Shown here: piece by piece, positions 2,320 through 58,885 of the stretch
Numbering within the stretch: position 1 is the stretch's first letter
Layout: each line of letters begins with the position of its first letter
Source of the DNA: Halobacillus halophilus DSM 2266
GTDB lineage: Bacteria > Bacillota > Bacilli > Bacillales > Halobacillaceae
NCBI RefSeq assembly: GCF_000284515.1
Contig: NC_017668.1
Coordinates: 1,798,001-1,862,000 of the forward strand
Length of the DNA: 64,000 nt
Direction: 5' to 3'
Position numbers and translations under genes: made by a program
The notes under the pieces: generated by a model
What the model saw: only the letters and a program-made list of their open reading frames with translations
Database searches by the model: none
What the model was told of the DNA's origin: nothing

Positions 2320-2452
2320 AATTGCGATCTCCATTAAAGTTTATTGTAGGTTTTTCATAAGAGGCTTATTACGCAATAGGGCCGGATTGTGGTGGACTCA
2401 GTTTCGAGATATTGGGTGGAGAAGTGGCTCCAGGGAACGGCTCGCTTTCCGT

Positions 2453-2512
2453 GGCCCTGCACGACGCAGGGTCGTTCGACGTTGCCACAGGAGGTGGCGG
2501 TCTTAGACGAAC
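2453..2512 (-). repeat. 60-bp hairpin module, copy a
   Basis: Begins GGCCCTGCACGACGCAGGG on the plus strand and ends in ACGAAC. It contains nested short stems (CCCTGC/GCAGGG, GCCAC/GTGGC-like, GTTCGAC/GTCGAAC-like). It sits in domain 2 just after CGCTTTCC, the same site as the copy at 37967-38026. Confidence 0.75.
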
Positions 2513-2581
2513 ATCCCATGTGGTGAGCTTCCTAAGGCTACGCCTTCCGGGATCTCACCGATCATGTTCATTCCATTCCTA

Positions 2582-2966
2582 CACTTTTTTTAGTCTTACT
2601 CGAAAATCAGAACATAAACGACAAGGAGAGCTATCCAGCTCCAGCACCTAGCGGCTAGTGAGACTTCCCTCAGTTCTGTACGATAAGTCAACATCGAATC
2701 GCTACGCTCTTCGTGTTTCCTTTATCTCCGCCAGCTCAAGGCTAGTTTCGGTGCCTAGCCTCTCGAGGTCTTAAGTCCAACCATGATAGGAAGAAGAGCC
2801 CTTCCTTTCATGGTCGTTCTTAAGCTTGGCGAGGCTGAACAAGGCACCTCCACATTTGGCCCTGCATGACGCAGGGTCGTTCGACGTTGCCACACGACGT
2901 GGGGATTTTAGTCGAACTTCCTATGTCCAGTCCATACGCCGCTGACCAAGGTGCTTCCACTTTTAA
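2582..2966. mobile_element. 385-bp insertion nested in composite repeat copy 1
   Basis: It interrupts the domain 2 palindrome: the flanks ATTCCTA (to 2581) and CCTAGGAGTCTTCA (from 2967) rejoin into the uninterrupted sequence of the other copies, leaving a 4-bp direct repeat CCTA (2578-2581 and 2967-2970) that could be a target duplication. Inside is a long imperfect hairpin (CTTAAGTCCAACCATGATAG near 2770 against its complement near 2815), plus one copy of the 60-bp module. No transposase frame and no clear terminal inverted repeats are visible. It resembles short noncoding repeats I believe occur in other Bacillaceae, but I could not verify this. Confidence 0.55.
2858..2917 (-). repeat. 60-bp hairpin module, copy b
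   Basis: Starts GGCCCTGCATGACGCAGGG and ends GTCGAAC. It lies inside the 385-bp nested insertion, so the module occurs in a sequence context unrelated to domains 1 and 2. Confidence 0.7.
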
Positions 2967-3266
2967 CCTAGGAGTCTTCACCGTTCCCTTCCGGCCCTTT
3001 GCGATCATTGAAAGCTCGAAATCCTTTACGTAAATGCCTTCATATGAGAAATAACAACCTATGTGATCAACGCTGAGTACCGAGTATCTACAGGGTATAA
3101 ACTTCGCTATAGAAGCATTTAAGACGATTTAAGGTTCCCACTTTTGGGGCCGTTCGCAACATTATAGTGGAGGTGGTGGGGAAATAGCGAGACTCCCATG
3201 GGAGAAGGGGCTAGGTGAGATCCCGCAGGGAGTGAAACGAGCGAGGAAGCTCTTGGCCAAAAGGAG

Positions 3267-3326
3267 GATCGACTAAAGTCGCCACGTCCTGTGGCAACGT
3301 CGATCGACCCTTCATCCTGCAGGGCC
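3267..3326 (+). repeat. 60-bp hairpin module, copy c
   Basis: Starts GATCGACTAAAGTCGCCACG and ends GCAGGGCC. It lies in domain 1 of composite copy 1, immediately before ATAGGAAAG, the same site as the copy at 18831-18890. Confidence 0.75.
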
Positions 3327-3686
3327 ATAGGAAAGTGTTCAAATGTGGAATCACCCCGAAAGACACGAACAGCATAAGCCGAGTATTAAAAGAATAGTGG
3401 TCTTTCCGTCCGTTGATGCTCGGCTTATGTCTCGAGGGTCTGGATGTTGGAACAAGACGAGTTATTTCCGAACCAACCCTTTTCTATCTAGAGTAACGGG
3501 CCCATTTATCTCGAAACTGAGTCTTCAACAAAAGGGAGCATAACTTTAAAATCACGACGGAAGTTTAACAGAGACAGTCTAATTGTAAGCCATAGGATAT
3601 TATTACATTCATACTTTATGATGTGCAGAAGCGTATAATGTGATAGAATAACGTTAGATTTTTACTGAAAAGATGGAGGACAGATC

Positions 3687-4352
3687 ATGAAAAAAGAATT
3701 TGCCGTGATAGGTCTCGGTCGGTTTGGCGGCAGTATCTGCCGTGAGCTTAGCCGTGAAGGCATGGAAGTATTAGCTTTAGACCTTGATGAAGATAAAGTG
3801 AACGAATATAGAGATATAGCGGCACATGCTGTCATCGCCGATTCTACTGATGAAAACGTATTGCGGGAACTTGGCCTGCGTAATATTGATCACGTCATCG
3901 TAGCAATCGGGGATAACATTCAAGCGAGTATCCTCACCACTTTAATGCTGAAGGAATTGGGCATTAAAACCATTACTGTAAAAGCACAAAATGACTATCA
4001 TGAAAAAGTACTAGCTAAAATTGGGGCTGATCACGTTGTTCACCCTGAGCGTGATATGGGTAAACGAATTGCACATAATATCATCTCCAACAACATTCTC
4101 GACTACATTGAATTATCAGATGACCATAGTGTCGTAGAGGTTAAAGCAGGAAGCAAAATGAGCGGCCGCACTCTGGTGGATCTCGATATCCGTGCTGAGT
4201 ACGGGTGTAACGTCGTGGCTATTAAAAGGAAGAAAGATGTCATTGTCTCTCCAATGGCCACAGAAGAAATCCGCGAAAATGACGTATTGATTGTCATCGG
4301 AGCAGATAAAGACATCAGTCGTTTTGAAAAAAATCTTGTAGTTGAAGATTAA
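3687..4352 (+). CDS. ktrC: Ktr potassium uptake regulatory subunit (RCK protein)
   Basis: This cytoplasmic gating subunit binds nucleotides and cyclic dinucleotides and controls a KtrD/KtrB-type K+ channel. The 221 residues comprise an RCK_N Rossmann domain (GLGRFGGS at residues 9-16, acidic residue after the second strand) and an RCK_C domain from about residue 137. The ATG at 3687 has GGAGGA 8 nt upstream, and a TATAAT box sits at 3634-3639. In B. subtilis ktrC also lies just before rnjA-rpoY-ykrA, which supports KtrC over KtrA. It is monocistronic, bounded by composite repeats on both sides and by its own terminator. K+ uptake is the first response to osmotic upshift, which fits a halophile. 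Confidence 0.88.
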   Translation: MKKEFAVIGLGRFGGSICRELSREGMEVLALDLDEDKVNEYRDIAAHAVIADSTDENVLRELGLRNIDHVIVAIGDNIQASILTTLMLKELGIKTITVKAQNDYHEKVLAKIGADHVVHPERDMGKRIAHNIISNNILDYIELSDDHSVVEVKAGSKMSGRTLVDLDIRAEYGCNVVAIKRKKDVIVSPMATEEIRENDVLIVIGADKDISRFEKNLVVED

Positions 4353-4364
4353 TCATCATTTTAA

Positions 4365-4394
4365 GAAAACCTGCCCGGCCGGCAGGTTTTTTTC
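4365..4394 (+). terminator. Terminator of ktrC
   Basis: Stem AAACCTGCC/GGCAGGTTT with a CGGCC loop and a T-run, 13 nt after the stop. Confidence 0.9.
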
Positions 4395-4576
4395 TTAGCT
4401 TTTAAAGCCAATCATTTCTACGCTTTGTAAACTCTTCGTCGTAATTTTTTAAATTAAGCTCCCGATATTGTAAGAATCGTTTTCCGCAGCAGCCCTTCCT
4501 TCCATTACTATTACGCTTTCTATACTTGAAAAACGAAACTCATATGATAACGAACGGTGAGATATTTAAAAAAAAG

Positions 4577-5163
4577 CTCTGTTAAACTTCCGTGTTGATT
4601 TTAAGGTAAAGCTTCCTTTTCTGTAAGACTCAGTTTCGAGATAAATGGGTCCGTTACTCTATGTGGAGGAGGGCTGGTGGGGAAATAACTCGCTTTCCTA
4701 TGGGGGAACGGTGAGCTTCCTCGCTCGTTTCACTCCCTGCGGGATCTCACCTAGTTCCTTCTCCCATGGGAGTCGCGCCATTTCCCCACCACCCCAACTA
4801 TAATGTTGCGAACGGACCCTTCCAGAAGAGATTGGTTCTCCTCCGTAATCTGTATGAAATGCTTTCATGACGGGCGATGTGTGTCGTTACATCCTAACTA
4901 CATTGGATAATACTTCATTATGCAGGTGATGGTTAAAGTGGTTTCGAGCTTCTAATTTGGCAAGGTCCGGAGGGGGAGGATGAAGACTCCTGCGGGATAA
5001 ACATGATCGGTGAGACCCCGGAAGTCGAAGACTGAGGAGGCTCAGCACATGCCCGCGGAAAGCGAATCATCCCCCGCAGGACCTTTCTTGTCATAAAAGT
5101 ATCTCGAAACTGAGTCTTCAACTAAACCGCCCTATTGCGTAATAAGGCTCTTATGAAAAATCA
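4577..5163 (-). repeat. Composite intergenic repeat, copy 2
   Basis: Left arm (about 4577-4623) contains CTGTTAAACTTCCGTGTTGA and AAGCTTCCTTTTCTG. Cassette inverted repeats lie at 4624-4643 and 5100-5119 (cassette 496 bp). Domain 1 spans 4647-4819, delimited by GGGTCCGTT/AACGGACCC, with inner stem GGTGGGGAAAT/ATTTCCCCACC. Domain 2 spans 4964-5083, delimited by GGTCC/GGACC. The right arm, with CTATTGCGTAATAAGGCTCT, ends near 5163. It is the reverse complement of copy 7, with cassettes of identical length and only scattered differences by eye. The rest of the 4395-5317 gap holds only the promoter of the next gene. Confidence 0.88.
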
Positions 5164-5235
5164 ACATTATACTTTAAGAGAGCATAAAAAAAGATGCTTG
5201 GGATAAACAAATATACAATATTTGGTGGCAGTTTA

Positions 5236-5260
5236 GTTTACTTCTTAAGCAAAAGGGAAA
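5236..5260 (+). promoter_or_regulatory. Candidate sigma-B promoter of the pyruvate oxidase gene
   Basis: GTTTAC at 5236-5241, 13-nt spacer, GGGAAA at 5255-5260, against the sigma-B consensus GTTTAA-N13-15-GGGWAW (11 of 12 positions). It lies about 60 nt before the start codon. From family knowledge, the B. subtilis homologue YdaP belongs to the general stress regulon. Confidence 0.65.
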
Positions 5261-5317
5261 TATAAAGTGCTATAGACAATATTCATTGCACTAGGAAACT
5301 TAGGAAGGATGATACTT

Positions 5318-7036
5318 ATGTTCGATCAACGTACAGGCGAAGTATTAACCCAGCAGTTAATTGATTGGGGAGTCAATCATATATATGGAATGCCAGGAGA
5401 TTCTATTAATGAATTTATTGATGATATAAGGAAAAGAGAAGAGGAACTTTCTTTTTTACAGGTAAGACATGAAGAGACAGGAGCGCTCGCAGCAGCAGCT
5501 TACGCGAAGCTTACCGGAAAGTTAGGCGTCACGCTATCCATCACAGGTCCTGGTGCTATTCATTTATTAAACGGTTTGTATGATGCAAAAGCGGACCAGG
5601 CACCTGTACTCGCCATTGTAGGGCATGTTCAAAGTGATCAGGTGGGCACCGGAGCGTTTCAGGAACAGAATCTTGAGCGCATGTTTGATGATGTAGCGGT
5701 CTTTAATAAACGGGCTGCCTCACAGGAACAGCTGCCGGATCTTCTGGATCAGGCCGTGAGAGAAGCTTACGCTAAAAAAGGTGTATCTGTGCTGATTGTT
5801 CCTGATGATCTTTTTGCCGCAAAGCAAACGGACGATGTACGGTTACGTGCAAGCAACCTATTTCAGCCTGAGATGATGCCTAAACAAAACAACATGATAG
5901 AAGCGAAGAAACGAATTGAGCAGGCAGAAAGGCCAGTGATTTTAGCAGGTAAAGGAGCAGCTGGTGCAAGAGAAGAGCTAATGGCTTTTGCTGAAACCAT
6001 TAAAGCCCCTGTAATCTTAAGTCTTCTAGCGAAAGGGATTTTACCAGATCACCACCCTTACTGCCTCGGGCATACAGGACAAATTGGAACGAAACCGGCT
6101 TATCATGCCATGAAAGAAACGGATCTTCTTATTCTTATAGGCACTCAATTCCCTTACCGGGATTTCCTGCCCGACCATGTAGATGCCATTCAAATCGATA
6201 ACAAACCAGAGCATCTTGGGAAGTATTATCCGATTAAATTAGGTTTAGCCGGGGATGCGAAAGAAACGATGGAAGCTTTGACTCAAGGAATCACAACTAT
6301 AGAAGAGCGTCCATTCCTTGAAAAATACCAGGAAAAAATGAAGAACTGGCATATTGCTCTTCAAGAGGAGAAGCGTTCTGAAGAGAATCCTTTACACGCG
6401 CCTCAAGTCATGTATGAACTGGAAAATCATATGGAATCTGGAGCTGTTATCTCAGGAGATGTTGGGAATGTAACGGTCTGGATTTCGCGTTTTCTGCCAT
6501 TTGTGGACCAGAAGTTTGTTATTTCCGGCTGGCTTGCCACCATGGGCAGTGGTTTACCAGGTGCGATTGCTGCACAGGTTGCCTACCCAGAGAAACAAGT
6601 AATCGGTATTGTTGGTGATGGTGGCTTTTCCATGGTGATGCATGATTTTGTGACCGCGGTTAAATATAATCTTCCAGTCAAAATCATCGTTTTAAATAAT
6701 AGTAAAATTGGTTTAATCAAATATGAACAAGCTCAAATGGGCCATCCTAACCATGCCACCAATTTAGGAGAAATGAACTTTGCAAAATTCGCAGAGTCCT
6801 GTGGAGGGCAAGGTTATCGAATTGAAAGCTATGAGGAGCTGGCACCAAAAATGAAGCAGGCTTTTGTATCCAACCAGCCAGTTATTATCGATGTAGCTAT
6901 TGAAGATATGGCACCACTGCCGGGCCATATCGACTATCAATCAGCCGTTAACTATTCCCAGTATATTGTTAAGAACTTTTTTGAGAATGGATCCCTAGAA
7001 CTGCCTGATTTGAAAAAAGCTTTAAAACGATTATAA
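5318..7036 (+). CDS. ydaP: Pyruvate oxidase-type thiamine diphosphate enzyme (YdaP family)
   Basis: This is a ThDP- and FAD-dependent enzyme of the pyruvate oxidase/acetolactate synthase superfamily, probably oxidising pyruvate to acetate or acetyl phosphate. Its 572 residues show the three-domain layout: an N-terminal PYR domain with the catalytic Glu in RHEETGALAAAAYAK, a central FAD/Rossmann-like domain from about residue 190, and a C-terminal PP domain with the ThDP/Mg2+ motif GDGGF...N near residue 430. An upstream in-frame ATG at 5309 directly abuts AGGAAGG. The ATG at 5318 sits 9 nt from it and is the better start. It is monocistronic, after a sigma-B-like promoter. Acetolactate synthase is excluded by overall likeness to YdaP rather than by one residue. 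Confidence 0.85.
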   Translation: MFDQRTGEVLTQQLIDWGVNHIYGMPGDSINEFIDDIRKREEELSFLQVRHEETGALAAAAYAKLTGKLGVTLSITGPGAIHLLNGLYDAKADQAPVLAIVGHVQSDQVGTGAFQEQNLERMFDDVAVFNKRAASQEQLPDLLDQAVREAYAKKGVSVLIVPDDLFAAKQTDDVRLRASNLFQPEMMPKQNNMIEAKKRIEQAERPVILAGKGAAGAREELMAFAETIKAPVILSLLAKGILPDHHPYCLGHTGQIGTKPAYHAMKETDLLILIGTQFPYRDFLPDHVDAIQIDNKPEHLGKYYPIKLGLAGDAKETMEALTQGITTIEERPFLEKYQEKMKNWHIALQEEKRSEENPLHAPQVMYELENHMESGAVISGDVGNVTVWISRFLPFVDQKFVISGWLATMGSGLPGAIAAQVAYPEKQVIGIVGDGGFSMVMHDFVTAVKYNLPVKIIVLNNSKIGLIKYEQAQMGHPNHATNLGEMNFAKFAESCGGQGYRIESYEELAPKMKQAFVSNQPVIIDVAIEDMAPLPGHIDYQSAVNYSQYIVKNFFENGSLELPDLKKALKRL

Positions 7037-7161
7037 AAAGTTCTATTTTCCAACAAGAGAAACCAGCCCTGTCTTTCTGAGGTTCAAAATCTGTAGAAAA
7101 CGGTGTCGGTGCTAAACGTTATGATCATTTAGCAAGCATATGTTGTAGTCAATAGATCTTT

Positions 7162-7197: not shown

Positions 7198-7205
7198 CGG
7201 TGTCT

Positions 7206-9526: not shown

Positions 9527-10312
9527 ATGGACAAGAAAATCGCCTTTTTCGATATCGATGGGACATTACTCAATCATCAAAAACAACTGCCAGAAGAAAC
9601 GAAAGAAGCTATAAAGCAGCTGCAAAATTCTGGCGTTTACTGCGCAATTGCTACTGGACGTGCACCATTCATGTACGAAGAAATAAGGGAAGAGCTTGGA
9701 ATCGATTCCTTTGTAAGTTTTAATGGTCAGTACGTCATATTGGAAGGGGAAGTAGTCTACAAAAACCCCCTTTCCGAAAGTTACTTGGAAAAGTTACATG
9801 AACATGCGCAAGAAAACAATCATCCCATGGTTTTTATGAACCATGAAACCATGAGAGCTTCCGAGCAAGAACATTCTCATATTGAAAAAAGCCTGGGTTC
9901 GCTTCATTTCGACTATCCGCAGGTAGATGAGTCTTTTTATAAAGGCCGGGAAATCTTCCAATCCCTTCTGTTCTGTCAGGGAGGGGAAATTGAAGACTAT
10001 AGAAGTGTTCACAAAGCATTTGATTACATCCGCTGGCACCCTTACTCCTGTGATGTTTTACCAGGAGGAGGATCGAAAGCTGAGGGAATCAAAAAAATGA
10101 TTGAAGCAGCTGGTCTTCGAATTGAGGATTCCATTGCATTCGGAGACGGGTTAAATGATATTGAAATGCTGCGGGAAACGGGTACAGGAGTAGCCATGGG
10201 AAACGCTGTTCCCGAAGCTAAACAGGTTAGTGATATGGTAACCACCGATGTAAATGAAGGCGGATTGGTAAAAGCCATCTACGACCTGGGACTATTAAAA
10301 GCACGCTCCTGA
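9527..10312 (+). CDS. ykrA: HAD superfamily (Cof-type, IIB) sugar/nucleotide phosphatase
   Basis: This 261-residue cytoplasmic phosphatase has the HAD nucleophile motif FDIDGTLL at residues 7-14, motif II (TGR), a IIB cap domain in the middle, and the Mg2+-binding motif GDGLNDIEML near residue 207. The true substrate is unknown. The start at 9527 is chosen because GGAGGA lies 6 nt upstream, and it removes nine residues of an in-frame extension. YkrA occupies the same place between rpoY and def in B. subtilis. Confidence 0.85.
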   Translation: MDKKIAFFDIDGTLLNHQKQLPEETKEAIKQLQNSGVYCAIATGRAPFMYEEIREELGIDSFVSFNGQYVILEGEVVYKNPLSESYLEKLHEHAQENNHPMVFMNHETMRASEQEHSHIEKSLGSLHFDYPQVDESFYKGREIFQSLLFCQGGEIEDYRSVHKAFDYIRWHPYSCDVLPGGGSKAEGIKKMIEAAGLRIEDSIAFGDGLNDIEMLRETGTGVAMGNAVPEAKQVSDMVTTDVNEGGLVKAIYDLGLLKARS

Positions 10313-10330
10313 CTAAGGATTATGGACATT

Positions 10331-10765
10331 GCAGTAAGCTCCCTTTTCTGTAAGACTCAGTTCCGAGATATTTAGGCTGAGAGGACAGTCCTTCGGGGGA
10401 TGATTTCGCTTTCCGTGGGCATGCGCGGAGCCCCCTCAGGCCTCAGGCCTTCCGGGGTCTCCCCTGTCATTTTTATCCCACAGGAGTCTACATCATCCCC
10501 CTCCGGACTTTGCCAAATTAGAAGCTCGAAACGGCTTTACCCTTCACCGCTTGAGAAGAAATACTACATGAGCTTTATCCTTTTATCAGGCTGAAACTTT
10601 GGGATAGAGCCTGTTATATAAGCATTCCAGCCAGGTTAAGGAGAACAGAATTCTCTTTTTCCGAAGGGGCCCTTCTCCAAATATCGTAACGGACCCAAAT
10701 TATCTCGAAGTCGAGTCTTACAGTAACCGGTCCTATTGTTGAATAAGCCTCTGAAAATCACTTAT
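10331..10765 (+). repeat. Composite intergenic repeat, copy 3 (domain 1 core deleted)
   Basis: Left arm includes AGTAAGCTCCCTTTTCTG. Cassette inverted repeats lie at 10351-10370 (TAAGACTCAGTTCCGAGATA) and 10701-10720 (TATCTCGAAGTCGAGTCTTA), and the right arm contains CCTATTGTTGAATAAGCCTC. Domain 2 (about 10388-10507) is complete, but domain 1 is reduced to its CGTAACGGACCC edge, giving a 370-bp cassette. Here the AGCTCCC arm adjoins domain 2, opposite to copies 1, 2 and 7. Nothing else is visible in the ykrA-def gap except the def terminator. Confidence 0.82.
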
Positions 10766-10806
10766 AACGATTGGCACATTAGGGTTATGGTCTCTGGATA
10801 AACCCA

Positions 10807-18180: not shown

Positions 18181-18361
18181 GGCTTGTCTGCACCCCTTTT
18201 CTAATCTGTTGCAGGACAAGTGTAACAAACAAAAAAGGAGAACCTGCCATTGTAATGGATATGTCATTGAAATGATAACCGAGTGTTTTATCATTAATCC
18301 ATATGTTAATAAATAATCAATTTTGTAACAAAAAAGGGGAAGAACATGCAGATGAACGTGC

Positions 18362-19085
18362 TTGTGTTGATTTTAAAGATAAGCTCCCGTTTGTGTAAGA
18401 CTTGATTTCGAGATATTTGTTGAGCGGAAGGTCCTGCGGGGGACGATTTCGCTTTCAGCGGGCATGAGGTGAGCTTCCTCGGGCTTTGCAGCCTGCGGGA
18501 TCTCACCAATCATGTTCATCCCGCAGGAGTCTACATCGTCCCCCTCCGGACCTGGCAAAATCAGATGCTCGAAATTATTTAAGACATCGGAGGGTTGATG
18601 AGAAAAAATCATGTGATCATGAGGCTATTTTTAAGCTATACCGATGTGGAATAGCCCGTCATAAAAGCATTTAGGACCGATTAAGAAGGAGAGCATCCTC
18701 TCTTATAAAAGCGTCCGTTATTCTTACTCGGCTGGGCTGGTGGGGAAATGGCGAGACTCCCATGGGAGAAGGGACTAGGTGAGATCCCGCAGGGAGTGAA
18801 ACGAGCGAGGAAGCTCTTGGCAAAAAGGAGGATCGACTAAAGTCGCCACGTCCTGTGGCAACGTCGATCGACCCCACGTCGTGTAGGGCCATAGGAAAGT
18901 GTCCAAATGTGGAATCACCCCGATAGACACGAACGGCTTATGTCTCGAGTGTCTGGGTGATGGAACAAGACGAGTTATTTCCCCACTAGTCCTTCTCCAA
19001 ATATCGTAACGGACCCGAATTATCTCGAAACTGAGTCTTCAATACTCCGGACCTTTAACGTAATATGCTTTTTATGGAAAATTAG
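18362..19085 (+). repeat. Composite intergenic repeat, copy 4
   Basis: Left arm has TGTGTTGATTTTAAAGATAA and AGCTCCC. Cassette inverted repeats lie at 18396-18415 and 19021-19040, and the right arm, with TTAACGTAATATGC, ends near 19085. Domain 2 (about 18430-18550) is followed by domain 1 (about 18710-19015), which carries a 60-bp module at 18831-18890 and a hairpin ATCACCC...GGGTGAT. The AGCTCCC arm adjoins domain 2, as in copies 3, 5 and 6. No gene is visible in this 18181-19237 gap. Confidence 0.85.
18831..18890 (+). repeat. 60-bp hairpin module, copy d
   Basis: Starts GATCGACTAAAGTCGCCACG and ends GTAGGGCC. It is in domain 1 of composite copy 4, next to ATAGGAAAG, the same place as the module at 3267-3326. 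Confidence 0.75.
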
Positions 19086-19175
19086 CAGTTAGGTTTAATT
19101 AAGTAGTGGAAATAAAAAACGAAGTAAGTGGTTTTTGGGGATTAGCACTCCACCAATCCCATTTATAAATGAAGA

Positions 19176-23044: not shown

Positions 23045-23073
23045 TTGATTTTTCGATTGTGCCATATTAAAAT
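23045..23073 (+). promoter_or_regulatory. Sigma-A promoter of the SR1 small RNA
   Basis: TTGATT at 23045-23050, a 17-nt spacer, and TAAAAT at 23068-23073; transcription should start near 23080. An inverted repeat ATGAGT-GTA-ACTCAT lies further upstream at 22992-23006. Confidence 0.75.
23058..23068 (+). promoter_or_regulatory. Candidate CcpN box II overlapping the SR1 -10 element
   Basis: TGTGCCATATT matches TRTGHYATAYW at all 11 positions. Two CcpN boxes around the core promoter are what is known for sr1, gapB and pckA in B. subtilis. Confidence 0.65.
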
Positions 23074-23083
23074 GAATGTACAT

Positions 23084-23097
23084 TGAAAGCGATTACA
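23084..23097 (+). promoter_or_regulatory. cre box (CcpA operator) at the SR1 start
   Basis: TGAAAGCGATTACA fits the cre consensus TGWAANCGNTNWCA at every position. It lies at about +5 to +18 of the predicted transcript, a place suited to repression. Confidence 0.7.
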
Positions 23098-23118
23098 AAT
23101 TATGAGGAGTGGATGTTA

Positions 23119-23229
23119 ATGGGTACAATCGTTTGTCAGGACTGTCAAAAAGTGATTGAACACTACGAAAATGAAAAGGTATCTACCCTTTACAGCACAT
23201 GCCCTACGTGCCATACAACGGAAAAATAA
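23119..23229 (+). CDS. sr1P: SR1P, GapA-binding small peptide
   Basis: This 36-residue peptide begins MGTIVCQDCQ, nearly identical to the start of B. subtilis SR1P, and has two CXXC pairs (Cys 6/9 and 28/31), suggesting metal binding. In B. subtilis, SR1P binds glyceraldehyde-3-phosphate dehydrogenase GapA, stabilises gapA mRNA and promotes GapA interaction with RNase J1, whose gene lies 14 kb upstream here. GAGGAG precedes the ATG by 9 nt. It is too short for usual gene finders. Confidence 0.88.
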   Translation: MGTIVCQDCQKVIEHYENEKVSTLYSTCPTCHTTEK

Positions 23230-23236
23230 AAGACGC

Positions 23237-23275
23237 AAAAAGCCCGCTGCTGTTTAAAGCAGCGGGCTTTTTTAT
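23237..23275. terminator. Bidirectional terminator shared by SR1 and speA
   Basis: Stem AAAAAGCCCGCTGCT/AGCAGCGGGCTTTTT; the speA stop lies just inside its right edge. Confidence 0.9.
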
Positions 23276-27204: not shown

Positions 27205-27227
27205 GATTTGATTCTGTTAAACATGTT

Positions 27228-27720
27228 AATTTTTCATAAATGGTTGCTTATGCCACTAAAGGGTCCTATTTTGGAAGACTCGATTTCGAGATAAATCGGG
27301 GTCCGTTATAATATACGGAGGAGGCTAGTGGGGAAATAACTCGCTTTCCTATGGGGAACGGTAAGCTTCCTCGCTCGTTTCACTCCCTGTGGGATCTCAC
27401 CTAGTTCCTTCTCCCATGGGAGTCTCGTCATTTCCCCACTAGTCCAACTTTATTAGGACGAACGGGCGGACCCTTAGGAAAGAGAGTATCCAATCCCTTA
27501 CCCCGCCTGAAATGCTTATATAACAGGCTATCCAGCATAGTTCCAGCCTGAAAAAGTATATACCGATGTGATTATTTATTCTCACGCGGGTGAAGAATGA
27601 ACCCGTTTCGAGTTTCTCATTCGGCAAGGTCCCCGCAGGAGCTTCCGCTCAACAAATATCTCGAAGTCAGTCTTCAAGTAAAGGGAGCTTATCTGTGAAG
27701 ATCAACGTGGATATACTATA
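27228..27720 (-). repeat. Composite intergenic repeat, copy 5 (domain 2 truncated)
   Basis: Left arm is TTTTTCATAAATGGTTGCTT and onward. Cassette inverted repeats lie at 27274-27293 and 27657-27675, and the right arm contains AAGTAAAGGGAGCTTATCTG. Domain 1 (about 27300-27475) is intact with stem GTGGGGAAAT/ATTTCCCCAC, while domain 2 is cut down to about 40 bp around 27628. The GGGAGC arm is next to domain 2, as in copies 3, 4 and 6. No gene is visible between ykzI and suhB. Confidence 0.82.
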
Positions 27721-27799
27721 GCTTTAGAGGTAAATATGTGAAATAAACCATCGTGATTTGATATGATAGAAACCATCTGATGTAAAGGAGTATGAGAAA

Positions 27800-37388: not shown

Positions 37389-37474
37389 GATGTCTAAATA
37401 GGTAACAGAGTAGATACGAAGGAAGGAAGCCTGGACTTATTATTAGTGATCATAAACGAAAGTTTGTACGTTTT

Positions 37475-38135
37475 TGGCATATTAAATATGTAGGCTATTA
37501 AACTAAAGGGCCGTATAGTTGAAGACTCAGTTTCGAGATATCTTAGGTCCGTTACTTAATATAGAGGAGGGATGGCTGCGGAAACAACTCGCTTTCCTGC
37601 GGGGAAACTGGCAAGCCTCCTCGGTCGCTGTCACTCCCTGTGGGGTCTCGCCTAGCTCCTTCTCCCGCGGGAGTCTCGTCGTTTCCTTCGCCACCCAGCC
37701 TGAAACGTAAAACGGCCCCTTTCATAAGAGGGGGAATCATCCTGAAGCAGCCTTAAATGCTTATAAAGCGGGATTTATACACTTAAATAAGCTAGATACT
37801 CTTTCGCTTCTCAGGTTCATTATCTTTGTCGAACAGGCATCTTCGAAGTGCATTTCGAGCTCCCTATTTCGCAAGGTCCAGAGGGGGACAATGAAGACTC
37901 CTGTGGGATGAAAATGACAGGGGAGACCCCGGAAGGCGAAGCCTGAGGAGGTTCCGCGCAGAAGAGGTTCGACTAATAACGCCACGTCGTGTGGCAACGT
38001 CGAACGACCCTGCGTCATGCAGGGCCGGAAAGCGAATCGCCCCCCGCAGGACTTCCCTCACTTCCAATATCTCGAAACTGAGTCTTCAAGTAACGGGAGC
38101 TATACTGTGAAATCACTTTGAAAGATCGTAGCTAT
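37475..38135 (-). repeat. Composite intergenic repeat, copy 6
   Basis: Left arm contains TAGGCTATTAAACTAAAGGG. Cassette inverted repeats lie at 37521-37540 (GAAGACTCAGTTTCGAGATA) and 38068-38087 (its exact complement), and the right arm is AAGTAACGGGAGC. Domain 1 (about 37547-37715) comes first and has changed arms (GGCTGCGGAAAC/GTTTCCTTCGCC). Domain 2 (about 37874-38055) carries a 60-bp module. The GGGAGC arm adjoins domain 2. The element occupies the interval between pycA and ctaB where ctaA lies in B. subtilis. Confidence 0.85.
37967..38026 (+). repeat. 60-bp hairpin module, copy e
   Basis: Starts GTTCGACTAATAACGCCACG and ends GCAGGGCC. It sits in domain 2 immediately before GGAAAGCGA, the same site as the copy at 2453-2512 read on the other strand. 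Confidence 0.75.
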
Positions 38136-38345
38136 AATTTGAACTTATCGACCAGGTAGTTTCTTTAAAAAACTTTTCCGAAAATGTAATATTATTTTTA
38201 CTTTTTATAGACGAAACCTTGCATTCCGGTCTGGAATTTGCTAGAAATAAATAGGTGGATGACAATCGTCAAGAAATAGTCAATAAATGTAAACCTACAA
38301 AGGCTATCTGTACGTTACAATAGGTATAAACGTGGGATTTTGGCC

Positions 38346-51312: not shown

Positions 51313-51511
51313 ATCATTCTACTTCCTTTCCTAAACGCATTCAAGACTACACTAGCAAAAATCAGCAGGCTTGTGAACACTCCATTTATGAGATGGATTC
51401 ATTTAATAAAAGGAACCTCTTTGAAGGTGGAGAGTTTTTTGGATTGAGAAGAAGTGATAAGTTTCCCTGTCGAATGAAAGCGTAATAAGCAGCCTGATAT
51501 TTTAATGCAAA

Positions 51512-51545
51512 AAAAATAGGGCTGTCCATCATAGACAGCCCTTCT
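51512..51545 (-). terminator. Orphan minus-strand terminator
   Basis: Stem GGGCTGTC/GACAGCCC, followed on the minus strand by a run of eight T. No recognised minus-strand gene lies upstream (51546-51781), so it may end an unannotated small transcript. The rest of the 51313-51781 gap shows only a small hairpin near 51632-51647. Confidence 0.6.
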
Positions 51546-51781
51546 TCCTCGAACCCTGAGATTCAAGAAAGTAAAGGGAGAGGAGAAACCGGAGGAAGTA
51601 CTTATGGGGATGTAAGCCTTCTCCGTTTTCAGAAGCAGTCATCTGCTTCAATTCTAGTATGGACTTGCACTTTTTCTTTTATTCATGAGAAACGGAATTC
51701 TTTATTAAAACCTTCAATTTCCTGCAGCCTTCATTTTGTGGTAGGATTATGGGGAATGATGACAAAAGAGGTGTACAAACG

Positions 51782-52330: not shown

Positions 52331-52822
<492 letters not shown>

Positions 52823-52823
52823 C

Positions 52824-52862: not shown

Positions 52863-54047
52863 ATCTTCATTTGATTCAGTACGTTTGGACTGCCATTTCA
52901 CAAACATCGTAAACATAATCATGACAATGGTGATCGGCGGCCCGAAATGGTGAAAGAATTCCAAAAGCGGGATGGTAAGCTGTTCGGTCGGGTTCCATAT
53001 CGGAAGACTGTCGGCCGGCTCAGATGGGGAGTAGACATAAAGGTATAAAAAAGCAATCATCAGGGTCGCAATGGCTCCATGAGTCAGTCTGGAAAGGGCA
53101 TATGGCTTAAAGCGGATATCCGTTTCTGCTATAATGCTTGCAATTTGAGCCTGGATAGAGAAGCCGTGAAAGCCTAAGATGAAACTTACAAGCATGAGCT
53201 GGGCTAGTAAGGATTCATGTGTTTGAGTCACCGCCCCGATTCCGGTAGTCATCTCCAGCATCCCGGCCATAAGCGGTATAGGAAAGCTTTCAGGAAGGCC
53301 GATCATATGGAACAAAGGGGATAAGGCGGGCAGGATACCTGTTCGTTTCAGCAGCTCTGTCAGAACGGAAAATAGCATAATAAACCCGCCGACCATCAGA
53401 AGGGTGTCAACAGATCGGGACACGGCATCCCCCATTAATTTCCCTATTGATCTACCATCGTCCAAACGAGACTGATGCATAGTGATGAAAGCTTCTCTGA
53501 AGGTTGGGTAGGTTTGGTCTCGAATGGGAGATTCTTCTTTTCTCTTGTAAAAACGCATAGCTATACCTACGATGAAGTTGCCTCCATAATGAGCGATAGC
53601 AAGAATTACTCCGAGAGAAGCATTATGAAAAAAACCTACAGCTACAGCTCCAAAAAGAAAAAGCGGACTGGATGCATTGGTAAAAGAGATGAGGCGCTCT
53701 GCTTCAATTTGAGAGATTTGGCCTTTTTTTCTAAGGTCAGCTGTCCATTTGGCTCCGCTAGGGTAACCACTTGCCATTCCCATGACCCACACAAAGCCGC
53801 CGGACCCGGGTACATTGAACAAAGGGCGCATAAATCGTTCGCTCAGGGCTCCCAGACCATGAACCACACCAAATCCAATAAGCAATTCGGCCGTAATAAA
53901 GAACGGGAGAAGAGATGGAAAGACCACCTCCCACCACAGATCAAGGCCCCTTAAACTGGCGGTCAAGGCAGCTTTAGGGTATATAATTAAGGACACGGCA
54001 AAACCAAGAGTTAAACAGGTCAGCCACATCGTCTTTATTTTGGAAAT
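52833..54047 (-). CDS. ylbJ: YlbJ sporulation integral membrane protein
   Basis: This nucleoside-recognition-domain membrane protein has about 404 residues, with eight or more helices and the conserved GGFVWVMGMASGYPSGAK and GFHGFSIQAQIASI segments. In B. subtilis it is mother-cell expressed and needed for heat-resistant spores. The start is unusual: the strong GGAGG site at about 54056-54061 is 8-9 nt from an ATT (54047), while the nearest in-frame ATG (54029) is 24 nt away. The open frame extends to 54125 without another good site. Confidence 0.85.
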   Translation of the reverse strand: MSKIKTMWLTCLTLGFAVSLIIYPKAALTASLRGLDLWWEVVFPSLLPFFITAELLIGFGVVHGLGALSERFMRPLFNVPGSGGFVWVMGMASGYPSGAKWTADLRKKGQISQIEAERLISFTNASSPLFLFGAVAVGFFHNASLGVILAIAHYGGNFIVGIAMRFYKRKEESPIRDQTYPTFREAFITMHQSRLDDGRSIGKLMGDAVSRSVDTLLMVGGFIMLFSVLTELLKRTGILPALSPLFHMIGLPESFPIPLMAGMLEMTTGIGAVTQTHESLLAQLMLVSFILGFHGFSIQAQIASIIAETDIRFKPYALSRLTHGAIATLMIAFLYLYVYSPSEPADSLPIWNPTEQLTIPLLEFFHHFGPPITIVMIMFTMFVKWQSKRTESNEDENDHYEHIS

Positions 54048-54219
54048 AAGGAACGCCTCCTCAACGTGCGCGGTTTTCTGTACTTCTAATATCATCCATA
54101 GTAGAATGAGGATATATTTGGACATGTAACAGGAAGGCTAGTCTATATTCCATATGTACGCTCATAAGATAACGATTTATTCCATAAAATATAGCAAAGT
54201 CTTGAAGGGGGAATAGCAG

Positions 54220-55008
54220 GTGGGAGGTCCGAAGATCGGTTTGGCGCTAGGTTCGGGAGGAGCACGTGGTTTTTCTCACCTGGGCGTTCTCAAGGTTCTC
54301 AAAAGTTACGGAATTCCAATCGATATGATAGCGGGGAGCAGCATGGGAGCTTTAGTAGGCTCTTTTTTTGCGGCTGGACAAAAGATTGAGGATATGTACA
54401 AACTCGCTTTTACGTTTAAACGGAAATATTATTTGGATTTCACCGTCCCGAAGATGGGCTTTATTCAGGGACGACGGATTAAAGAGTACATCCGTCTTTT
54501 TACTTTTGGAAAGAACATAGAAGATTTCCCTCTTCCTATGGCGATTATTGCGACAGATCTGTACGCCGGGCAAAAGATGATTTTTACAGATGGTCCTGCC
54601 AGTGAGGCAGTCCGGGCTAGCATCGCCATTCCCGGGATTTTTGTGCCGGAACGAATCAATGAGCGTTTGTATATTGATGGAGGCGTAATGGACCGTGTCC
54701 CCGTTTCTGTTGTGAAACAGATGGGCGCTGACATTGTAATCGCAGTAGATTGCGCTCATTTTGACGCCGATCCCAATATCAATACCATCTATGATGTTAT
54801 TACGCAAAGTATAGACATCATGCAGGATGAATTAGTGAATGCTATGGGAGTATCAACAGATGCTGATGTTATGATTCGTCCAGATGTATCCAAATATAGC
54901 TCCCGCGCTTTTACGAATATTGAAGATATCGTAGCCGCGGGGGAAGCAGCAGCGGAAGACCAGATTAAAAATATCCAAACCAGGCTTGCTGCATGGAAGG
55001 AGCCCTAA
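54220..55008 (+). CDS. ylbK: Patatin-like phospholipase/esterase YlbK
   Basis: The 262-residue patatin-family hydrolase has the oxyanion GSGGARG (near residue 11), the nucleophile motif GSSMG with catalytic Ser near residue 40, and the dyad Asp in YIDGGVMD. The substrate is unknown. It starts with GTG at 54220, 8 nt after AAGGGGG. It overlaps the ribosome binding site of ylbL. Confidence 0.9.
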   Translation: MGGPKIGLALGSGGARGFSHLGVLKVLKSYGIPIDMIAGSSMGALVGSFFAAGQKIEDMYKLAFTFKRKYYLDFTVPKMGFIQGRRIKEYIRLFTFGKNIEDFPLPMAIIATDLYAGQKMIFTDGPASEAVRASIAIPGIFVPERINERLYIDGGVMDRVPVSVVKQMGADIVIAVDCAHFDADPNINTIYDVITQSIDIMQDELVNAMGVSTDADVMIRPDVSKYSSRAFTNIEDIVAAGEAAAEDQIKNIQTRLAAWKEP

Positions 55009-55012
55009 AAGA

Positions 55013-56035
55013 ATGAAAGCCAATAAGCGCGTACTTATTACTGGAATCATAACCGCAGTGATTATTGCATTTTTAGCGGCATATCGATTACCGTTTTATA
55101 TTTACAAACCAGGTTCTGCTGACGCTTTGGACCCGATTGTCGAAGTCGTCGATGGATATGATAGTGAAGGTGATATGCATCTGGTAACCGTAAGAGGCGG
55201 ACAGGCAACACCAATACAGTGGCTGATGGCTAAAATCAGGCCATACAACCAAGTTTATCCGATCGAACAAATCCGTCCAGAGGGTGTATCGGAAGAAGAA
55301 TACTACCATGCTCAGCTGCAAATGATGGAATCTTCTCAGGAAGCGGCTAAAGTGGTCGCTTATCAGGCGGCAGATAGAGACATAGAAATTAATTTCGAAG
55401 GCGTTTTTGTCATGAGTGTTATTCAAGGAATGCCTGCAGAAGAAAAACTGCAATCAGGTGATCAAATTCTGGAAGTTGATGGAAAGAAAATCGAGGAGTC
55501 CAGCGACTTAATTAATTATGTCACGGATATGAAAAAAGGATCAAATGTAACATTAACGATCAAAAGAGATGAAGAGACGCTTCAAAAAGACATCGAGCTT
55601 GCTCCATTTCCTGACAATCCAGATAAAGTAGGGGTAGGAATTTCCCTTGTAACGGATCGATCCGTCAAGGTTGATCCAGAAGTTAAAGTGAAGAGCGGAG
55701 AAATCGGCGGACCCAGCGCTGGCTTAATGTTCTCGCTTGAGATCTATGATCAGTTAACAGAAAACGATGTTACGAAAGGATTTCAAATTGCGGGGACCGG
55801 TGAAATTAACTACGAAGGGCAAGTAGGAAGAATCGGCGGTATAGATAAGAAAGTGGTAGCGGCCTCGAATGATGGGGCGGACATCTTTTTTGCTCCGAAT
55901 GAAGATGGACGTGAAAACTCAAATTATCAAGTAGCCAAACGGACCGCAGAGGACATTGAGACAGAAATGAAGGTAGTTCCCGTGGATACGTTCCAAGAGG
56001 CTCTAACCTATCTAAAGGACCTTGAACCAGCCTGA
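55013..56035 (+). CDS. ylbL: YlbL, membrane-anchored PDZ-Lon-like protease
   Basis: The 340-residue protein has an N-terminal membrane anchor (about 7-28), a PDZ domain (about 125-195) and a Lon-type protease domain with catalytic Ser235 in GGPSAG and Lys279/280 in GGIDKK. In B. subtilis YlbL can degrade the cell-division inhibitor YneA. The ATG at 55013 follows AAGGAG located in the end of ylbK. It ends at a terminator. Confidence 0.92.
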   Translation: MKANKRVLITGIITAVIIAFLAAYRLPFYIYKPGSADALDPIVEVVDGYDSEGDMHLVTVRGGQATPIQWLMAKIRPYNQVYPIEQIRPEGVSEEEYYHAQLQMMESSQEAAKVVAYQAADRDIEINFEGVFVMSVIQGMPAEEKLQSGDQILEVDGKKIEESSDLINYVTDMKKGSNVTLTIKRDEETLQKDIELAPFPDNPDKVGVGISLVTDRSVKVDPEVKVKSGEIGGPSAGLMFSLEIYDQLTENDVTKGFQIAGTGEINYEGQVGRIGGIDKKVVAASNDGADIFFAPNEDGRENSNYQVAKRTAEDIETEMKVVPVDTFQEALTYLKDLEPA

Positions 56036-56038
56036 TAC

Positions 56039-56077
56039 GAAAGAAGCAGCCTCCTGAGAAGGCTGCTTCTTTTTTAA
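56039..56077. terminator. Bidirectional terminator between ylbL and tmcAL
   Basis: Stem AAGAAGCAGCCTCC/GAAGGCTGCTTCTT with T-run. Confidence 0.88.
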
Positions 56078-57279
56078 TGTTGAACGGGGGCACCGTACTC
56101 CGCTTTGATCATAGCGTTTCTTACAGAAGCTTCTAAAACACTGTAGTATGCGATTGCAGCTCTCTCTTCAATATCCAGCATAAGATGATTCATTTGCTGT
56201 GGCTGAGTGAGTAAAGGGATTCTCATCTGTTTCTTAGTCGAACGCAAATAATCTTTCCCGGTGTCACTCATAGCTAATACGCGTACATAAGGTGGAGGCT
56301 GGTTCAGCAGCAATTGAGCATCCTGCTTTTCAGTGCCTGTCAAAATATGCACGAGCGTGCGCTGCAATCTTGTCCACGTATAACGTTTCGTCTTTAATTT
56401 TTCCATAAACTGCTGAAAATTCTCAGATTCTTTAATGATTCGTTGAAGCCGGTGTTCAAGCCCTTCATCGACTCCTTGGATAGAACGAAGATCTTTTGGT
56501 TTCAAAGTTAAGATTTTGTGCTGCAGTAAGGAGAAATATTGATTCCATTCATGCCACATGCCCTTGTTTTCCTTATATAAAAGCAGCTGGTCCCGAGTGG
56601 CTTCTGGTATAGAGTCCTGAACAAGGAGGTTCATGCCGTCAGCTAAGAGTTCTTTTCTTATACTGGTGGCACTTGCAATATTTCCCTCAATCGTTTCGTC
56701 ATGGTAATGATTTTTTTCTCTTTTAATGGTAAGAGGACGAATCTGATTATTGTAGGCGAGGATTTGTTTTACGTAGCTGTAGCCCAGAATATTGTTGGGC
56801 TGAGCCAGATCAATACTATTCGTTGGCAACTCAACAGCCTGGTAACCAAAACGAGAGGCTTCAGGAAAGGAGTACCCCTGATTTAAATGTTTCCTTACGG
56901 TTTCATCATAAAGCCCCGCATGTTGGTCCAAATGATCGTGAGCGCTTAGAAAAGCCTGTATATCACCACTTTCACTGCCGAAACAGATAGATTCCACCCC
57001 AATTTCAGAAAGAGCCTGCACGGCTCCCTGACTGAAATAGTCACTGTGCTCAACAGCATATATGTAGGGAAGCTCCAGTACGAGATCAGCACCAGATTTT
57101 AAGGCTGCTTCAGCCCGGTGCCATTTATCAATGATGGCAGGTTCCCCACGCTGCAGGAAGTTTCCACTCATGATGGCAATCATACAATCAGCTTCTGCAG
57201 TTTCTTTCGAACGTTCCAGGTGATAAAGATGACCATTATGAAAAGGATTGTATTCCACGATAACCCCGCATGCTTTCAA
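56074..57279 (-). CDS. tmcAL: tRNA(Met) cytidine acetate ligase
   Basis: TmcAL (YlbM) forms N4-acetylcytidine in the wobble position of elongator tRNA-Met using acetate and ATP. The 401 residues have the nucleotidyltransferase signature VEYNPFHNGHLYHL (residues 8-21) and the second motif SYVKQIL. It is divergent from ylbN, with about 200 bp between them. Confidence 0.92.
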   Translation of the reverse strand: MKACGVIVEYNPFHNGHLYHLERSKETAEADCMIAIMSGNFLQRGEPAIIDKWHRAEAALKSGADLVLELPYIYAVEHSDYFSQGAVQALSEIGVESICFGSESGDIQAFLSAHDHLDQHAGLYDETVRKHLNQGYSFPEASRFGYQAVELPTNSIDLAQPNNILGYSYVKQILAYNNQIRPLTIKREKNHYHDETIEGNIASATSIRKELLADGMNLLVQDSIPEATRDQLLLYKENKGMWHEWNQYFSLLQHKILTLKPKDLRSIQGVDEGLEHRLQRIIKESENFQQFMEKLKTKRYTWTRLQRTLVHILTGTEKQDAQLLLNQPPPYVRVLAMSDTGKDYLRSTKKQMRIPLLTQPQQMNHLMLDIEERAAIAYYSVLEASVRNAMIKAEYGAPVQH

Positions 57280-57429
57280 ATGAGTTCCTCCTTCAAAATA
57301 AAGTAGATTTAAACATGTATTGAATTTATTTTATCATGAAGAGGAAGAAAATTCGCATACAAAGGGTAAAATATGTTATCTTAATGAAACCATTGAGAAA
57401 TGGGTAGCATTTGCTGTAAAGAAAAAATA

Positions 57430-57458
57430 TTGACAAATGACGTAAATCCTTTTACAAT
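57430..57458 (+). promoter_or_regulatory. Sigma-A promoter of ylbN-rpmF
   Basis: Perfect TTGACA at 57430-57435, 17-nt spacer, TACAAT at 57453-57458; start codon 27 nt further. Confidence 0.85.
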
Positions 57459-57485
57459 AACTCTTGTTGCCATGAGGTGATAACT

Positions 57486-58007
57486 ATGAAATTTCCTCTC
57501 CAGAAACTTAAACAAGCAGGTGACGAACCGTTTGTTTTTGAAGAAGAGGTAGATATTCGCGAATTAGAAGAAATGAAAAATGACATTCGCAGGATTTTCC
57601 CTGTCCATGTCAAAGGTCAAGCCGTCACACACGGAAATGATATTACGGTGACTTTTTCAATTGATGGAGAAATGGTTTTACCTTGTGCCCGGACATTAGT
57701 CGATGTGACTTATCCGTTTAAAATTGATGCACTGGAAGCCTTCAATCTTTCTCCTTATCATGAGGAAGAAGATGATTCCGAAGTTCATCCAGTGCAGGGA
57801 GAAGTGCTTGACTTGACGCCTTATATCAAGGAAAATGTACAGTTGGAGATTCCAACTAGAGTATTTTCCAATGATAATGAGGCTCAGGATGCAGCCCCCC
57901 AGGAAGGGAAAGGCTGGCTAGTAGTTACTGAGGAACCAGAGGAAAACAAAGTGGATCCTCGAATGGCTAAACTGCAATCATTATTAGATGAAAAAGAAGA
58001 CGAATAA
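57486..58007 (+). CDS. ylbN: YceD/DUF177 family protein YlbN
   Basis: The 173-residue acidic protein has the conserved C-terminal DUF177 region DPRMAKLQSLLDEK and central ARTLVDVTYPF. DUF177 proteins are linked to 23S rRNA and ribosome formation and are almost always cotranscribed with rpmF, as here. The ATG at 57486 is 6 nt after GAGGTGA; an upstream in-frame GTG at 57477 overlaps that site. Confidence 0.9.
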   Translation: MKFPLQKLKQAGDEPFVFEEEVDIRELEEMKNDIRRIFPVHVKGQAVTHGNDITVTFSIDGEMVLPCARTLVDVTYPFKIDALEAFNLSPYHEEEDDSEVHPVQGEVLDLTPYIKENVQLEIPTRVFSNDNEAQDAAPQEGKGWLVVTEEPEENKVDPRMAKLQSLLDEKEDE

Positions 58008-58054
58008 GAAAATCGTTTCGGTTTTCTAATCGTAAATAAAAGGAGGTGTAGAAC

Positions 58055-58228
58055 ATGGCAGTACCTAAGCGCAGAACGTCTAAAAAAGTCAAAAATCAAC
58101 GCCGTACTCACAAAAAACTTCACGCACCAAAAATGCACAAGTGTGAAAATTGCGGTGAGTTCACTAAGCCACACCATGTTTGCAAATCTTGTGGACAATA
58201 CAACGGAAAACAAGTAGTTAACAACTAA
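58055..58228 (+). CDS. rpmF: 50S ribosomal protein L32
   Basis: The 57-residue ribosomal protein begins [19 protein letters not shown] and has four zinc-ligand cysteines (30, 33, 43, 46), so it is the C+ zinc-binding form. AAAAGGAGGTG precedes the ATG. It is the second gene of the ylbN-rpmF operon and ends at a terminator. Confidence 0.97.
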
Positions 58229-58240
58229 ATCCTTGTTGGA

Positions 58241-58276
58241 GAAAGAGTCTGAACATAAGTCAGGCTCTTTTTTTTA
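58241..58276 (+). terminator. Terminator of ylbN-rpmF
   Basis: Stem AAAGAGTCTGA/TCAGGCTCTTT with a run of seven T. Confidence 0.88.
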
Positions 58277-58301
58277 TGTTCAGATCTTTTAAACGTTGCA
58301 A

Positions 58302-58885
58302 CTTTTTTCATGATCGGCTTATTACACAATCTGGCCGGATAGTTGAAGACTCAGTTTCGAGATACTTTTATGACAAGAAAGGTCCTGCGGGGGATGATTC
58401 GCTTTCCGCGGGCATGTGCTGAGCCTCTTCAGTCTTCGACTTCCGGGGTCTCACCGATCATGTTTATCCCGCAGGAGTCTTCATCATCCCCCTCCGGACC
58501 TGGCCAAATCAGAAGCTCGAAACCACTTCAACCATCACCTGCATAATGAAGTATTAGACCATGTAGTTAGGATATAACGACCCACACAGCCCGTCATGAA
58601 AGCGTTTCATACAGATTACGGAGGAGAACCAATCTCTTCTGGAAGGGTCCGTTCGCAACATTATAGTTGGGGTGGTGGGGAAATGATGAGACTCCCATGG
58701 GAGAAGGGACTAGGTGAGATCCCGCAGGGAGTGAAACGAGCGAGGAAGCTCACTGTTCCCCCATAGGAAAGCGATTTATTTCCCCACCAGCCCTTGTCCA
58801 TCTAACGTAAAGGACTCATTTATCTCGAAACTGAGTCTTCAAGTAATGGGAGCTTTTCTGGATGATCTTCACTGAGGAGTTTTTG
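58302..58885 (+). repeat. Composite intergenic repeat, copy 7
   Basis: Left arm contains TTTTTTCATGATCGGCTTAT and GGCCGGATAGTT. Cassette inverted repeats are GAAGACTCAGTTTCGAGATA at 58345-58364 and its complement at 58821-58840 (cassette 496 bp). Domain 2 (about 58381-58500) precedes domain 1 (about 58645-58815). The right arm is AAGTAATGGGAGCTTTTCTG. The cassette is the near-identical reverse complement of copy 2, while the outer arms have diverged more. The GGGAGC arm adjoins domain 1. No gene is visible between rpmF and the crotonase gene. Confidence 0.88.

Follow-up and report, generated by a model that had tools for sequence, protein, structure and literature searches.

Separate histories of arms and hairpin cassettes in a large composite repeat family of Halobacillus halophilus

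Results

Seven copies of a composite repeat

We analysed a 64,000-nucleotide stretch of Halobacillus halophilus DSM 2266 (the window; NC_017668.1, positions 1,798,001 to 1,862,000), which holds seven copies of a large noncoding repeat. Each copy is built from two outer arms and a cassette of hairpin-forming modules bounded by 20-bp inner inverted repeats, and the cassettes have a history separate from that of the arms. The element is probably a large composite miniature inverted-repeat transposable element (MITE) that an IS1595-type transposase moved in trans, with its cassettes spread by homologous gene conversion. The copies and the main features inside them are listed below; G000 denotes the source genome, G002, G005 and G009 denote congeners, C1 coordinates are those of G000, and L numbers denote extracted loci.

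2327..3575 (+): copy 1, arm A to arm B; ends worn, limits approximate; long composite cassette with modules B1, M1, X1, B1, X2, M2, B1, X3, M2
4575..5184 (-): copy 2, 610 bp with a basic cassette, running from arm B to arm A on the + strand; flanked by the 8-bp duplication TAAAAAAA (4567-4574 and 5185-5192)
10302..10785 (-): copy 3, arm B to arm A; part of the cassette deleted; the worn left end, positioned from the arm length, abuts the end of an open reading frame (ORF)
18347..19105 (-): copy 4, arm B to arm A; in G005 the arm order is the same but the cassette is reversed
27209..27725 (+): copy 5, arm A to arm B; truncated cassette; in G002 the arms keep their order but enclose another cassette, in opposite orientation
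37456..38136 (+): copy 6, arm A to arm B; cassette near-identical to that at G000:C1:1775702-1776234
58280..58889 (+): copy 7, arm A to arm B; worn ends and a basic M1-SP-M2 cassette (SP, spacer)
58345..58364 (+): left inner 20-bp inverted repeat of copy 7, GAAGACTCAGTTTCGAGATA; partner at 58821-58840
58365..58500 (+): module M1 of copy 7, which forms a hairpin and by eye resembles the core conserved in ~183-bp MITEs of other Bacillales
58641..58820 (+): module M2 of copy 7, the second hairpin
3257..3323 (+), 2456-2522 (-) and 2861-2927 (-): Bacillaceae-1 RNA (RF01690) in copy 1
18821-18887 (+) and 37957-38023 (+): Bacillaceae-1 RNA (RF01690) in copies 4 and 6

A sequence-only reading of the window had described seven intergenic intervals with one architecture, and comparison found related sequence in all seven. 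The 20-bp inverted repeat that it described is present but varies between copies. Its two palindromic domains hold for the basic form; however, copy 1 has extra modules, and copies 3 and 5 are partly deleted. Two outer arms exist as claimed, but they are of different types, A and B, and the elements are longer than was thought, since terminal repeats and target duplications lie outside the arms given there.

Family size and range

Within the window, the inner-repeat core GACTCAGTTTCGAGATA occurs 7 times forward and 6 times in reverse (up to 3 mismatches); the copy at 27228 has a more diverged right inner repeat. In the 4.17-Mb genome, a 17-bp core matched at 185 forward and 177 reverse places (362 in total, up to 2 mismatches), whereas the reversed control pattern matched once forward and never in reverse. 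These counts indicate about 180 elements, so the family is far larger than the seven members first proposed. At 181 copies of about 0.6 kb, we estimate that the element makes up ~2.6% of the genome. Copy 2 found matches at E ≤1e-5 in all 22 Halobacillus genomes searched, source genome included. The copies sampled for the analyses below are biased to those resembling copy 7 or having perfect inner repeats.

The absence of a transposase was borne out within the limits of the seven copies, which contain no ORF of at least 100 aa. Among 20 annotated units in a 162-kb stretch, 18 overlap no ORF of at least 90 aa, and the orientation of the surrounding genes followed no clear rule. A role as a chromosome-organising sequence, the other suggestion of the sequence-only reading, found no support in these 20 units.

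Elements look thinner in G000:C1 1.94-2.86 Mb (~22% of the chromosome), an interval picked after looking that is possibly the terminus. It holds none of the best 40 scored places and 9 of 97 RF01690 matches among those listed.

True ends and target duplications

Both ends carry the terminal repeat GGCTCTGTTAAA(C/G)TTnnnTGTTGATTTT. In arm A, GGGCCGGATTGTG or a similar sequence adjoins the inner repeat and the end usually lies 68 nt from the inner-repeat core; in arm B, the adjoining sequence is AGCTCCCATTACTT or similar and the end usually lies 52 nt from that core. One A and one B arm were found in 62 of 70 pairs, which include two copies also counted in the window (L001, L005) and one spurious pair (L004 at 1091). 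L012 was labelled with two A arms. Most copies are worn: both ends were within 3 mismatches of the 12-bp tip in 18 of 71 copies, a set from which L001 and L005 were removed and which includes the spurious L004 pair, as do the module-annotation counts. The target duplication is 8 bp long. It matched at 6 or more of 8 bases in 14 of the 18 good-ended copies (six perfectly), compared with a mean of 1.67 and a maximum of 7 for shuffled partners.

The basic element is 610 bp and the longest reach ~1250 bp. MITEs are usually under ~600 bp, so the size is borderline and above the usual limit. We therefore use the name composite MITE; MITE-like working does not depend on size.

Cassette modules

The basic cassette between the inner repeats is M1-spacer-M2, ~450-470 bp, in which M1 and M2 fold into hairpins. 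The predicted fold of copy 7 was far more stable than shuffles (z -5.9 as RNA, -5.2 as DNA). By eye, M1 and M2 both resemble the hairpin core of ~183-bp MITEs in other genera. Extra modules lie at fixed points: RF01690 in M1 and M2, and X1-X3. All five RF01690 matches in the window (57.7-67.8 bits, gathering threshold 35) fall in copies 1, 4 and 6.

Matches to RF01690 also lie inside some terminal-repeat pairs of other genera (L081, L146, L108, L088, L130). Nevertheless, the notion that all Bacillaceae-1 RNA is MITE-borne was rejected. In a sample of the order, the RNA occurred in 78 of 150 genomes, but a matching terminal-repeat pair enclosed only 1 of 30 loci (one locus being off-register). 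It is thus an independent module that the elements picked up. The RNA is itself multicopy, with at least 20 matches in many genomes of the order and up to at least 31, mostly outside terminal-repeat MITEs (30 loci, L215-L243). We also considered the Bacillaceae-1 loops as CsrA-like GGA sites. This was dropped on reading the sequences, as the loops are variable and Rfam's strand is not the one that carries the motif.

It is very improbable that the elements are primarily RNA or DNA structures useful to the host (terminators, attenuators or small RNA genes) that were spread by transposition. The stable fold, the Bacillaceae-1 RNA modules and the 18 of 20 units clear of ORFs speak for such a role, and compensatory changes were seen in 5 of 18 pairs among 23 short relatives. 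However, the covariation term of these relatives was about zero (0.09 kcal/mol), so that their case as a covarying RNA is weak. In addition, the units show no consistent gene orientation, and whole cassettes are replaced at orthologous sites, as described below.

Cassettes have a history separate from the arms

The copies at C1:1928420 and C1:719198 lie ~1.2 Mb apart. Their cassettes are identical at 461 of 461 bases, whereas their outer arms match at only 20 of 55 positions on each side (ungapped). Copy 6 and C1:1775702 agree at 498 of 499 aligned positions with one 28-nt gap, and their outer arms are unrelated.

The same was seen across the sample. On a scale where nearly identical arms would score above 40 by arithmetic, the 18 pairs with cassettes at least 95% alike had outer arm scores of 10.6 (A) and 12.0 (B). 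The 544 pairs with cassettes less than 85% alike scored 10.5 (A) and 10.2 (B). Pairs share members in this comparison, and L001 and L005 were removed. Some boundaries lie 16-27 nt beyond the inner repeat.

These scores are hard to square with a plain MITE family, in which whole elements inserted and the arms then decayed fast while selection kept the interior. Such a history would agree with mean identities over 630 basic pairs of 0.88 for M1, 0.78 for SP and 0.86 for M2, that is, with hairpin modules more conserved than the spacer. The recurrence of the hairpin cores across genera also fits it, as do some near-identical pairs with related arms. Yet cassettes identical at 461/461 bases or 498/499 aligned positions, spacer included, have arms that resemble each other no better than the arms of unlike pairs do, and it is hard to see how decay could have removed the arms and left the spacer intact. 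Moreover, the arms at orthologous sites are retained from species to species and the cassette differs. We consider this history improbable.

Orthologous sites in relatives

The 162-kb stretch of the source genome with its 20 annotated units was compared with G005 and in part with G002, and ten sites whose arms could be compared were tabulated. Outside the ten are two empty sites, two sites largely lost in G005 and one at a contig edge, together with C1:1764552, 1775655 and 1800329, at which the comparison was poor or contradicted the pattern seen elsewhere. The arm order was the same wherever both arms were seen; at C1:1785164 only one arm was seen in G005. At five of the ten sites (C1:1744743, 1755406, 1780644, copy 4 and copy 5, the last against G002), the cassette was opposite while the arm order was unchanged. 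Both orientations of the segment between fixed flanks were seen between species, not within one strain.

At C1:1744743, flanks and arms align directly at ~80%, whereas the cassette aligns well only when reversed; M2 is then nearly identical and the spacer unrelated. At the site of copy 7, arms and flanks are 80-83% identical between the source genome and G002, and the G002 M1 equals that of C1:1703931 (score 1.0). The M1 of the relative was closer to another source-genome locus than to its ortholog in 7 of 7 comparisons, in which the ortholog ranked 16, 65, 58, 43, 13, 3 and 6 of 69. For M2, the ortholog ranked 2, 43, 63, 22, 8 and 4 of 68, and S8 was void because the source copy has no M2.

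In-place inversion as the sole cause of the flips is not favoured, since orthologous cassettes are seldom the closest relatives and orientation follows relatedness.

Mobility and IS1595-type relatives

The sequence-only reading had also raised a nonautonomous mobile element, and on this point the comparison agreed with it. The site of copy 2 (window 4575-5184) is empty in G005. It is also without the element in G002, whose flank has further deletions. A second site empty in G005, at about G000:C1:1759899-1760583, has its own duplication TAAATAAT.

Scanning genome contigs with the terminal-repeat pattern gave at least 120 stretches, and the 80 titles listed were all from Bacillales-type bacteria. 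An inverted partner was found in 89 of 120 stretches by a loose filter, with 81 of the 89 pairs shorter than 1 kb; four pairs above 1.2 kb (L122, L148, L155, L196) look like chance pairs. In other genera, the duplication matched at 7 or more of 8 bases in 61 of 84 terminal-repeat pairs, a figure that is no independent test because pairs were partly picked for matching duplications. Three loci, L096, L109 and L186, have a transposase between the terminal repeats and a perfect 8-bp duplication each. The gene of L186 is apparently interrupted. All three proteins match Pfam DDE_Tnp_IS1595, and the NCBIfam IS1595 model matched two of the three at 1.5e-63 and 6.1e-61. The shared ends, 8-bp duplications, empty sites and IS1595 relatives thus argue for a large IS1595-type MITE, and the first and second of these point to movement by an IS1595 transposase.

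The source genome gave no match to Pfam DDE_Tnp_IS1595 at E ≤0.001 and none to the L096 protein at E ≤1e-5. Transposase relics matching the L096 protein were found as 8 fragments in 7 of 22 genomes, each with at most 88 residues matched. All 8 fragment loci have a terminal repeat 4-728 bp away with 3-5 mismatches of 25, and the best opposite-strand match there has 8-11 mismatches. Equally good terminal repeats occur in 14.5% of same-length windows in the source genome, 6.8% in G005 and 6.2% in G002 (one stretch each), so the eight out of eight are not explained by chance. From these fragments we infer that the transposase once lived in the genus and then decayed. With the enzyme absent here and fragmentary in congeners, most copies should be old, and they were probably moved long ago by an enzyme now gone from the source genome.

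The composite form also occurs in Thalassobacillus devorans, where L117 and L119 have inner repeats, intact ends and perfect duplications. In Pontibacillus, L143 shares these ends and by eye contains two hairpin cores, but it has no inner repeat. These forms suggest that the element grew stepwise out of a short hairpin MITE. Growth by modules may be widespread, to judge from short same-ended MITEs of other genera: by eye, L131 and L161, as well as L093, L091 and L108, differ by whole hairpins within hairpins.

Several other loci share these ends. A 95-bp MITE in Gottfriedia endophytica (L113:3377-3471) contains a stretch that by eye resembles half of the inner repeat. Besides it, no inner-repeat likeness was seen by eye in the 83-145 bp MITEs of other genera, viewed as empty docking elements. 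Within a 2310-bp terminal-repeat pair with a perfect 8-bp duplication (L165:3946-6255) lies an open frame of 448 residues; by eye it resembles a transposase of another, IS110-like kind and may be a nested insertion. Plasmids gave 18 terminal-repeat matches and no transposase between two such ends, as judged by the annotation of 8 and the sequence of two; transposases sit near the matches on plasmids of Priestia flexa and Nostoc. Viral contigs gave no exact-pattern match to the terminal repeat or the inner repeat.

Exchange of cassettes

In the reading that we prefer, which is also the simplest, an IS1595-type transposase would have moved the copies in trans by insertion, and cassettes would then have been copied repeatedly between sites by homologous gene conversion. 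The 20-bp repeat and ~25 nt of arm core would provide a shared edge for exchange. Breakage at strong hairpins may start it, for example by SbcCD, which acts in general hairpin processing. Because the two 20-bp repeats are inverted, a cassette could occasionally be installed backwards. The exchange was presumably by cassette-wise gene conversion or recombination.

Several observations weigh against this scheme. An edge of 20 bp plus a variable 25 nt is shorter than the identity that ordinary homologous exchange usually requires, particularly for a backwards installation. Two pairs, L008/L011 and L010/L011, combine near-identical cassettes with related arms (scores 16.5-25), as expected if whole elements also moved. 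Mosaics within the cassette are suggested in 2 of 630 basic pairs. Flips are rare within the genome: the nearest cassette relative was opposite in 5 of 68 cases, whereas shuffling gave a mean of 30.9 and a minimum of 17. Orientation thus tracks sequence relatedness, and backwards installation is rare. The flip at C1:1780644 depends on weak module matches. Some cases of apparent exchange could also be mimicked by loss and re-insertion at one place: copy 1 is inverted as a whole in G005, and the G005 remnant of 97 bp at C1:1775655 has a B arm where the source genome has A.

The main rival to gene conversion is a dedicated site-specific recombinase acting on the 20-bp inverted repeats, or on repeat and arm core, and inverting or exchanging cassettes among ~180 docking sites. 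We regard this as unlikely, although much of the above would suit it: relatedness changes sharply at or near the inner repeats, cassettes lie opposite between unchanged arms at five of ten orthologous sites, and the inner repeat is conserved in hundreds of copies. The rarity of inversions within the genome, the boundaries 16-27 nt beyond the repeat and the two within-cassette mosaics count against it. A further point in its favour is a solo unit of 60 bp.

Solo 60-bp unit

This unit consists of two outward-facing inner repeats around a conserved 20-nt centre (approximately AAnTAnAGGGCAGGTTnGTT). It was found in 47 copies in 18 of 22 genomes, with 0 for the control, and its loci include L040:981-1040, L065:1074-1133 and L255-L272. 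On reading the sequences, the centre splits into halves that by eye resemble the cores of arms A and B. In 19 aligned loci the unit has sharp boundaries, and a few of these loci have some downstream sequence in common. Among 18 loci (one per genome), a same-strand ORF of at least 60 aa starts 66-205 nt past the unit in 10 by simple ORF reading. Five loci compared with Rfam gave no credible match. The unit also occurs on the Halobacillus litoralis plasmid NZ_CP026119.1 (coordinates as in G009), with further matches on plasmids of Salimicrobium and Pseudalkalibacillus.

More speculatively, all of this could form a genome-wide system of cassette exchange. A since-decayed IS1595-type transposase would have left ~180 fixed docking sites, among which hairpin cassettes, some with Bacillaceae-1 RNA, would be swapped and occasionally inverted via the 20-bp repeats; the solo unit would be a recombination site or a remnant. 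We hold this to be possible but doubtful.

Comparison with known systems

The element shares with IS1595-mobilised MITEs its terminal repeats, 8-bp duplication, lack of a gene, high copy number and IS1595-type relatives with the same ends. It differs in its size and in having inner 20-bp inverted repeats that bound an exchanged modular cassette. Bacillaceae-1 RNA, though matched above the gathering score, is only one module and not the whole. Like invertible segments and shufflons, the element has a segment between inverted repeats in both orientations. In contrast to these, it is present in ~180 dispersed copies, exchange is between loci, inversion is rare and between species only, and no recombinase is known for it, none having been searched for. 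REP (repetitive extragenic palindromic) sequences and BIMEs (bacterial interspersed mosaic elements) are also high-copy intergenic palindromic DNA, but the Halobacillus element is much longer and has terminal repeats and target duplications.

To our knowledge, MITEs of bacteria are usually regarded as inert relics whose movement, if any, involves the whole element. Here, unusually, the middle piece appears to be exchanged and sometimes flipped between copies while the ends stay put. The result is a noncoding element whose ends and interior have separate histories, and whose interior includes hairpins catalogued by Rfam as an RNA gene. The family can serve as a natural experiment in how dispersed bacterial repeats exchange sequence, and it cautions against reading Bacillaceae-1 RNA as a host small RNA.

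Bacillaceae-1 appears in a table of Weinberg et al. 2010 (PMC2864571). The text of a 2024 review of prokaryotic MITEs (PMC10969869) contains none of the terms Bacillus, Bacillaceae, IS1595 and Halobacillus, and passages of a stem-loop survey (PMC1590033) hold nothing on the Halobacillus repeat. No description of the element was found in the open-licence literature searched, sequence strings included; it may have been described elsewhere.

Other matches in the window

Two further RNA families were matched in the window: the SR1 antisense small RNA (RF02376) at 23071-23273 and the ylbH leader (RF00516) at 51510-51628.

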